From positions 1-10,992 of the forward strand of contig JAFZCF010000054.1 of NCBI GenBank assembly GCA_017552165.1: DNA of 10,992 nucleotides. Direction: 5' to 3'. Below are positions 8,187-10,559 of the stretch, piece by piece. Origin of the DNA: Clostridia bacterium. GTDB lineage: Bacteria > Bacillota_A > Clostridia > Oscillospirales > CAG-272. The notes below the pieces were generated by a model. It had not been told where the DNA came from. It saw only the letters and a program-made list of their open reading frames with translations, and did not search any database. Numbering within the stretch: position 1 is the first letter of the stretch; each line of letters begins with the position of its first letter. The position numbers and the translations under genes were made by a program.

Positions 8187-10559
8187 ATGGCTGATAAAAC
8201 AGGCGTCAAGATGCGCATAAAGAGCGTCGCCGACACAAAAAAGATCACCGACGCCATGTATATGACGTCTTCTGTCAAAATGCGGCGCGCGAGAAGCGCG
8301 GTGGAAAAGACCGCGCCGTACTTCGGAGCTCTGCGCGAAGAGATCGGAACGCTTCTTCACTATCTTCCCGACGGGGAGCATCCCTATTTCCGCGCCGTTC
8401 CCGGCGGCTCCTCCGGCGGCGCCCTCCTCGTGATAACATCCGACAAGGGGCTCGCGGGAAACTACAATCACACCGTTATAAAGGAAACCGAAAAGCTGCT
8501 CGCCGCGCGGCCGTCGCCTCAGCTCTTTCTGATAGGAGAATACGGAAGGCGGTATTTCATATCGCACGGCGCGCCGTTCCGCGAATCATTCCTGTATTCG
8601 TCGGAAATGCCGACGCTGCGGGAAGCGCAGAAGATATGCGCCGAGCTTCTTCACGGCTACGAGGCCGGCGAATTCGACAGGATCGACATCCTTTACACCG
8701 ATCACAGCGCCGAGCACGCGGGCGTCTGCCGTAAGATACGCCTTCTTCCGCTCAGCGAGTCGCAGTTCGACTTTCCGGAAGACGAGGAGGAAGCTCCCTT
8801 CGGAAAGGAATTCCTTCCAAACCCGGAGGGGCTTATCAGCGAAATAATACCAAGCTATCTCACGGGATATATCTACGGCGCGCTCGTCGACAGCTACTGC
8901 AGCGAACAGGAAGCGAGAATGAAAGCCCTTCATTCCGCGGGCGAGAACGCCGAGGCGATGCTCAGCCGGCTGAAGCTCAGATACAACAGAATGCGGCAGG
9001 CGGAAATAACCGCCGAAATAACCGAAATAACGTCCGGCGCGAGGGCTCTGCGAAAGAAAAAAGAAGCCCAGGCACGCGGTCCGGCGGGGGAAACAAAGGA
9101 TCCGTCCGCCGGCAGAAAGGAAAAAACAATGGATCGGCTCATAAACAGCGGCGCGTCCGGCGAGATAGCGGGCGTCTCCGGACCTGTGATAGACGTACAG
9201 TTCCCCGAAGGGATCGCCCTGCCGAAAATACGCGAAAAGCTCTCCGTTTCCGCCTCAGACGGCAGGGAGCGCGTCATGGAGGTCGCGCAGCATATGCGCG
9301 GCAGACTCGTGAGATGCATCATGCTCGGACCGAGCGAGGGGCTCTGCCGCGGTCTTGCGGTCAGGGCGACCGGCGGGACGATAGACGTACCGGTGGGACA
9401 ATGCGTCCTCGGCAGGATGTTCGACGGCCTCGGCAATCCGATCGACGGAGGGGCCGCGCTCACGGGCGGCGACGCCGAAAGGAAAAGCATTTACCGGCCG
9501 GCTCCGGAATATACCGAGCGCCTGACGTCCGAGGAAATACTCGAGACCGGCATAAAGGTCATCGATCTCTTGGCGCCGTACGCCAAGGGCGGAAAGATCG
9601 GCCTTTTCGGAGGCGCGGGCGTCGGCAAGACCGTGCTTATACAGGAACTTATGCACAATATCTCCACGGAGCACAACGGATATTCCGTCTTTGCCGGCGT
9701 CGGAGAGCGGAGCCGTGAGGGAAACGATCTGTGGCTTGAAATGAAAGAAAGCGGCGTCATTGACAAGACGGCCATGGTTTTCGGGCAGATGAACGAGGCC
9801 CCCGGCGTGCGTATGCGCGTCGCGCTCTCGGGTCTCCGCATGGCTGAGCATTTCCGCGACGAGGATCACCGTGACGTTCTGCTTTTCATAGACAATATTT
9901 TCAGATTCATTCAGGCGGGGAGCGAGGTCTCCACGCTTCTCGGACGCATGCCATCCGCCGTCGGATATCAGCCGACGCTTGCCAACGAGCTCGGCGAGCT
10001 CGAGGAAAGAATAGCGTCCACCGTAAACGGTTCGGTGACGTCGGTCCAGGCGGTCTACGTGCCTGCCGACGACCTGACCGACCCCGCCCCGGCTGCTATT
10101 TTCTCCCACCTCGACGCGACGACCGTGCTGAGCAGAAAAATTGCGGAACAGGGCATCTACCCCGCCGTCGACCCGCTCGAATCCTCGTCGCGCATACTCG
10201 AGCCGGACATCGTCGGTACTGTGCATTACGAGACCGCGCGCAGAGTTCAGGAGACGCTCGAACGCTATCGCGAGCTCCAGGACATAATCGCGATCCTCGG
10301 CATGGACGAGCTGAACGAAGAGGACAAACTCACCGTCTCGCGGGCCCGCAGGATACAGAAATTCCTTTCTCAGCCGTTCAACGTTGCGGAAAAGTTCACC
10401 GGGACTGCCGGACAGTACGTCCCGCTTTCCGAGACCATACGCGGCTTCCGCATGATACTTGACGGCAAAACGGACGACGTTCCTGAATACGCCTTCTTCA
10501 ACGTCGGAACGATTGACGACGTTTTCAGAAAAGCCGGGATCGCGGAGGCGTGTGAATGA
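8187..10559 (+). CDS. atpG-atpD: Fusion of ATP synthase gamma and beta subunits in one frame
   Basis: A single frame of 790 residues. Residues 1-288 are a full gamma subunit (rotor shaft): N-terminal helix [25 protein letters not shown] in the middle, C-terminal helix [16 protein letters not shown]. Residues 289-314 are a Lys/Gly/Pro/Glu-rich linker. From Met315 it is a complete catalytic beta subunit of 476 residues: Walker A GGAGVGKT at 475-482, catalytic Glu507 in GERSREGND, Walker B LLFIDN, and DELNEED for the usual DELSEED. ATG 8187 is chosen because GGAAAGGAGG (8171-8180) is six bases upstream; ATG 8181 touches it. There is no stop between the two parts in this frame. A beta ribosome binding site is kept in the linker, so separate beta is likely also made. 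A sequencing error removing the gamma stop cannot be excluded. Confidence 0.9.
9116..9131 (+). promoter_or_regulatory. atpD: Internal ribosome binding site and start for free beta subunit
   Basis: AAAGGA (9116-9121) is placed seven bases before in-frame ATG 9129, which begins a beta subunit of normal length (476 residues, ending at 10559). Such spacing is optimal, so beta can probably be translated independently from within the gamma-beta frame. This matters because F1 contains three beta per gamma. Confidence 0.65.

Follow-up and report, generated by a model that had tools for sequence, protein, structure and literature searches.

Gamma and beta subunits of an F-type ATP synthase encoded in one uninterrupted reading frame in a Clostridia bacterium and its relatives

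In the textbook view of rotary catalysis, rotor and stator are separate chains. Several described systems come close to the arrangement reported here. In Bacillus PS3, the N-terminal domain of delta, which fills the central concavity on the ring axis, was removed and the rest of the subunit was joined to alpha, giving up to three stalks (Ueno et al. 2025, PMC12229609). The available part of that paper reports an H+/ATP ratio of 5.8 for the engineered delta(deltaN)-alpha PS3 FoF1, names natural delta-alpha fusions, e.g. in Acidaminococcus fermentans, and describes no gamma-beta fusion. In E. coli F1, the gamma285-alpha280 cross-link leaves 100% of ATPase activity and cross-links lower on the shaft lose it (Hilbers et al. 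2013, PMC3536650, Table 1); in the available text, activity with the tied gamma tip is explained by swivel in the last helix residues. The beta subunit of the G1-ATPase of Mycoplasma mobile (9io5_A, 784 aa) carries a large N-terminal addition, attached via a linker at the crown; according to the accessible portion of the source, its 299 extra residues comprise a small helical domain and a linker, not gamma (PMC11864180). In Gordonia and some Mycobacterium, b and delta are fused, so that two stalk subunits share one chain and no rotor subunit is involved, and N-ATPases are encoded by an F-like operon without a separate delta gene, in the order beta-epsilon-a-c-b-alpha-gamma (PMC5709465, as far as its available text goes). 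Delta-alpha and stalk fusions are thus already published. A natural gamma-beta fusion apparently is not: we found no report of one in the open-access literature, subscription papers lying mostly outside the search. On delta-alpha and multi-stalk enzymes, the same literature yielded nothing beyond the delta-alpha study and the stalk fusions named above.

The window analyzed here is a whole stretch of 10,992 nucleotides from a Clostridia bacterium (contig JAFZCF010000054.1). It encodes a, b, c, alpha, beta, gamma and epsilon together, as F-type enzymes do (Pfam, above curated cut-offs), in the order a-c-b-(delta-alpha)-(gamma-beta)-epsilon. The complete delta (OSCP) subunit of F-type enzymes is represented only by OSCP 97-171, fused to alpha. 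The features are as follows.

4481..5413, + strand: subunit a (atpB); PF00119
5416..5805, + strand: subunit c (atpE) with a long N-terminal extension; PF00137 at residues 62-124, TIGR01260
5846..6355, + strand: subunit b (atpF); PF00430
6355..8148, + strand: alpha carrying the C-terminal domain of delta at its front; residues 11-87 match OSCP 97-171, and the N-terminal domain of delta is absent from it
8173..8180, + strand: Shine-Dalgarno sequence of gamma, AAAGGAGG; from the sequence, -11.9 kcal/mol at the gamma ATG
8187..9050, + strand: gamma part, residues 1-288; PF00231
9051..9128, + strand: charged linker of 26 residues replacing the gamma stop; from the sequence, pLDDT <50 at residues 298-321
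9116..9121, + strand: AAAGGA, possible Shine-Dalgarno sequence of an internal beta start; 7 bases upstream, -5.9 kcal/mol, moderate
9129..10559, + strand: beta part, opening with the internal ATG (residue 315) and running through the stop; Pfam beta domains, start conservation
10556..10978, + strand: epsilon (atpC), overlapping the beta stop; PF02823

From the gamma ATG to the beta stop (10557-10559), positions 8187-10559 read without interruption through 790 residues; a further in-frame ATG lies ahead of it at 8181. Gamma matches PF00231 at residues 7-288 (profile 5-285 of 285), beta domains are matched at residues 328-396, 455-668 and 675-760 (Pfam), and the canonical beta start Met is residue 315, with its ATG at 9129. 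The first-pass annotation had described one stop-free frame in which the gamma stop has given way to a 26-residue linker, and both points are borne out, the linker running from the gamma end (288) to the beta Met (315). F-type enzymes have gamma and beta as separate chains; here both lie in one open frame, from which free beta could be made starting at 9129. At the level of the reading frame it is thus established that gamma and beta of this F-type ATP synthase/ATPase are one encoded polypeptide. The AlphaFold model of the fused protein is weak (pLDDT 67, pTM 0.39) and does not address the ring.

Two of the known systems can be set aside as identities. N-ATPase is rejected because the beta-epsilon-first gene order is not found, and G1-ATPase because the N-terminal addition to beta is gamma itself and not a foreign domain. 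A close likeness is to the PS3 delta(deltaN)-alpha FoF1: in both, the delta C-terminal domain sits on the N-terminus of alpha and the delta N-terminal domain is missing. The window's delta-alpha protein can be aligned over almost its full length (residues 25-556) with residues 12-541 of a PDB chain, 9jc1_I, which bears the name delta,alpha and is presumably the construct of PMC12229609. The PS3 enzyme is engineered, whereas the window holds a natural operon. The cross-linked E. coli F1 resembles the locus in that the gamma C-terminal end is covalently tied to the stator, with activity kept in E. coli; there, as the available text has it, the tie is a disulfide engineered directly between gamma and alpha, with no linker, and here a peptide would tether gamma to beta.

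To see how widely the joint occurs, the gamma region of the fusion was searched against 5.8 billion proteins with a length filter for long proteins, a search which finds fusions only. It returned 43 fused proteins of 612-831 aa, the window's own (P0001) included, each with gamma and beta Pfam domains; P0043 is without the gamma N-terminus and P0024 breaks off within beta. Apart from the window's own, these proteins share 41-83% identity with its gamma part. In a control search with gamma alone, for which the best 120 of 1232 matches were considered, relatives of at least 57% identity are 25 fused versus 1 unfused. The 25 consist of 21 of the 43 proteins above and four more (P0044, P0045, P0046, P0048), in which gamma continues into beta and the sequence then ends; the exception, P0047 (57%), is placed outside the window's fused clade. 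Among the same best 120 of 1232, unfused gamma relatives occur at 49-57% identity; P0102, another long protein, owes its length to an extended front, and its gamma is not fused.

The first reading had proposed a search for the same fusion in related genomes, and it is present in five assemblies. G695, G573, G826 and G834 (whose contig ends inside beta) are four of the 31 genomes covered from one small order. G311 belongs to another order, where, among the matches listed from a sample of 392 genomes, it gave the only stop-free full-length match. At the DNA level, the fused loci are L124 (G311), L130, L131, L138 and L141, the contig of the last stopping inside beta. The 80 loci kept from among the matches listed in the contig scan are all unfused, a second class sample of largely the same genomes gave no new fused genome, and none was found in the family of G538 or in relatives of G342.

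A quick gamma tree of 124 rows was built with every second unfused relative and without P0017, P0038 and P0043. The label "fused" needs five changes at fewest, four of them forced by starred branches, compared with 36.6 for shuffled labels. The window falls in a clade of 34 rows, all fused (SH-aLRT 91, not starred); outside it, the fused rows comprise P0029 with its kin, eight in all, together with P0031, P0042 and L124 of G311. P0031 and P0042 are singletons, in which a lost-stop error could hide. Without the G311 row, a set of 87 rows needs four changes, and a single fused clade is rejected (AU test, p-AU 5e-84), which disposes of one origin for all fusions in that set. The G311 gamma-beta joint is unrelated, its gamma being 29% and its beta 65% identical. 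The tree thus needs four to five changes of fusion state, which may be gains or losses, and gamma-beta joining appears to have evolved more than once. If so, a joint between rotor and stator was apparently made repeatedly and retained through deep divergence.

Between the gamma end and the beta-start Met lie 6-57 residues across the fused proteins, and the linker sequences differ. Met occupies the beta-start position itself in 42 of the 43, the exception being a Val (P0009, known from protein alone, where a GTG codon would fit); elsewhere in the linker region, Met accounts for 10 of 1296 residues. Such a conserved start codon amid an unconserved linker is best explained by its use as a start. 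A four-base Shine-Dalgarno core is encodable before it in 41 of 43, against a background of 55% at all positions and 68% at linker positions; the codons of P0037 and P0041 are unable to encode even this core. On DNA, the window, L147, L149 and L150 have AAAGGA or a close form ahead of the ATG, and L148 is weaker (-4.9). The window's value of -5.9 has to be read against its own frame, where -8.1 is attained at 5% of codon positions and three ATGs further into beta match or exceed it. The independent fusion of G311 has AGGAGGUG ahead of an in-frame GTG, at -15.7 kcal/mol. We regard the gamma-beta fusion together with an inner beta start as well supported by these comparisons.

Gamma and beta are present at a ratio of 1:3, so extra beta is required. 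Given the kept beta start, the gene should yield both fused gamma-beta and free beta, which would fit one gamma to three beta. The first-pass annotation had considered that beta might be driven mostly by an internal start. The start is indeed kept, but it adds to the fusion and does not replace it: since no stop lies between them, a ribosome starting at gamma also makes beta.

The second peculiarity of the operon concerns delta. The C-terminal domain of delta is joined to alpha in the window and its kin, and to b in G311 (L151 5952-6632, OSCP 97-172 at b residues 151-225); the latter joint is like the b-delta fusions of Gordonia and Mycobacterium. At E<=0.001, 278 delta-alpha fusion proteins without the delta N-terminal domain were collected; as an observation on its own, this family offers candidates for multi-stalk ATP synthases. 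For 10 of the 43 fused gamma-beta proteins, the length of the longest contig equals that of a listed delta-alpha protein, a proxy by which the two probably lie on one contig. Among 50 dereplicated delta-alpha proteins, taken from 120 listed of the 278, the alpha start position holds Met in 19 and Ile in 31, so that an internal alpha start in the delta-alpha gene is not supported. The window itself has Met there, and the loss is one of the family only; at that level no alpha start is kept at the joint, and every alpha would carry a delta domain. This would allow for three delta domains in the natural enzyme. The inner starts would then match stoichiometry, being not kept at delta-alpha, where three copies are possible, and kept at gamma-beta, where one fits.

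A delta profile built from 30 separate deltas classified 121 loci with readable upstream DNA. The delta N-terminal domain was scored in 0 of 6 gamma-beta-fused loci versus 99 of 115 unfused loci. The 121 loci are neither random draws nor de-duplicated, and the fused ones represent two lineages at the DNA level, so that the 99:16 contrast does not compare independent cases. Since 16 of the 115 unfused loci also scored without the domain, its loss can be at most permissive. L073 and L079, where the profile match begins at position 66, were counted as having the C-terminal domain alone, but their deltas may be complete and divergent; in L168, L171 and L172, all unfused, delta is joined to alpha with the N-terminal domain mostly kept. 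In L147, L149 and L150 the C-terminal domain escaped the profile but is detected by tblastn based on the window and by PF00213; in G695 the PF00213 match of this domain is below cut-off. When whole assemblies were searched with PF00213, the N-terminal domain was not found in G573, G834 and G311, which gave the C-terminal half only, and full-length delta occurred in G695 and G826 solely in a second, conventional operon.

We suggest the following mechanism, which we consider somewhat probable as a whole. Starts at 8187 would give fused gamma-beta and starts at 9129 free beta, and one fused chain with two free betas would fill one ring. The fused chain would be incorporated uncut, with its linker leaving the alpha3beta3 ring at the top, through the space of the delta N-terminal domain, to reach the beta N-terminus. 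In 42 of the 43 proteins, 19-70 residues separate the gamma end from the beta barrel anchor, which by a simple estimate would span no less than 65 A if stretched out. Because the tether would hang on the rotation axis, it could swivel about backbone bonds and leave rotation free. The delta N-terminal domain would have disappeared first, and fusion would have become tolerable as a result, more than once. Uncut incorporation, a working tether and the permissive role of delta loss are the parts that we infer. The tolerated tether of the first-pass annotation is thus plausible, and the delta loss adds a reason which it did not give.

There are other ways to account for the open frame. That a sequencing or assembly error produced it is practically refuted: the window sequence is known from its contig alone, yet the fusion recurs in 43 proteins and five assemblies, with the G311 operon on a 3.4 Mb contig, so that for the family an error does not come into question. 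An indel had been feared in the A-rich stretch at 9053-9065, but fused L149 and L150 are without any run of five A, so a homopolymer error explains neither the fusion in general nor, in our judgment, the window. The same A-runs might instead cause frameshifting or termination in the linker, giving free gamma, with beta made from its own start; a +1 shift in the window would reach a stop 35 codons past the gamma end. We hold this to be very improbable, and as a general explanation we reject a frameshift or stalling site, since an in-frame slippery heptamer is present in one of six fused loci (L147) and L149 and L150 have no five-A run to slip on.

The main rival to an uncut tether is a cleaved polyprotein, in which ordinary proteases cut the linker before or after assembly and the internal start tops up beta. 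We find it doubtful but worth serious attention. The linkers are charged, unconserved and predicted to be floppy over their 6 to 57 residues, and a flexible, K/R-rich segment would be exposed to proteases; the 43 fused proteins show no visible conserved cleavage motif in it, dropping a stop codon would be a costly route to two proteins, and cross-linked F1 rotates without any cut (PMC3536650, available text). Scarcely more credible than an artifact, and slightly less so than the frameshift, is a fused enzyme that is non-functional or a decaying accessory, a second rotary ATPase doing the work. All five fused genomes do encode a second rotary ATPase, of conventional F-type in G695 and G826 and represented by the A and B subunits of a V-type in G573, G834 and G311, and the fused enzyme is therefore probably accessory there. 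Decay, though, sits badly with the conservation of both gamma and beta across the fused family, including invariant columns in the beta P-loop region, and with the depth of the 34-row fused clade on the gamma tree.

Returning to the dual-product gene with an uncut tether, it may be carried further to a natural rotary motor that functions while a single chain contains parts of both rotor and stator, a possibility that we put forward tentatively. With three delta-tagged alphas, the stator would be threefold and could have as many as three peripheral stalks. With the axis plug gone, a single swivelling gamma-beta tether would exit through the opening and mark one beta, taking over from delta as the one asymmetric part. 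The internal start codon would set the gamma:beta ratio, and operation at low ion-motive force might be possible. This hints at a role of the delta N-terminal domain in closing the ring top and making one place in the ring unique, and fused enzymes would make turning under a permanent swivel tether directly testable.

Several minor observations concern the surroundings. In G311, a lone beta-like protein (L195 1073-2479; TIGR01039, 467 bits, cut-off 463) lies about 20 kb from the fused operon. Subunit c of the window, which appears to lack the sodium-ligand Gln, is extended at its N-terminus by about 60 residues with a signal-peptide-like beginning, as are those of L147, L001 and L002. Positions 1-3600 of the window hold genes that by eye resemble carbohydrate metabolism genes and regulators, e.g. 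an AraC-like one at 2249-3121. In L148 (G826), QNGG-type repeats occupy the gamma-beta linker and QNGGSPR-type repeats are found at the C-terminus of b in the same operon.
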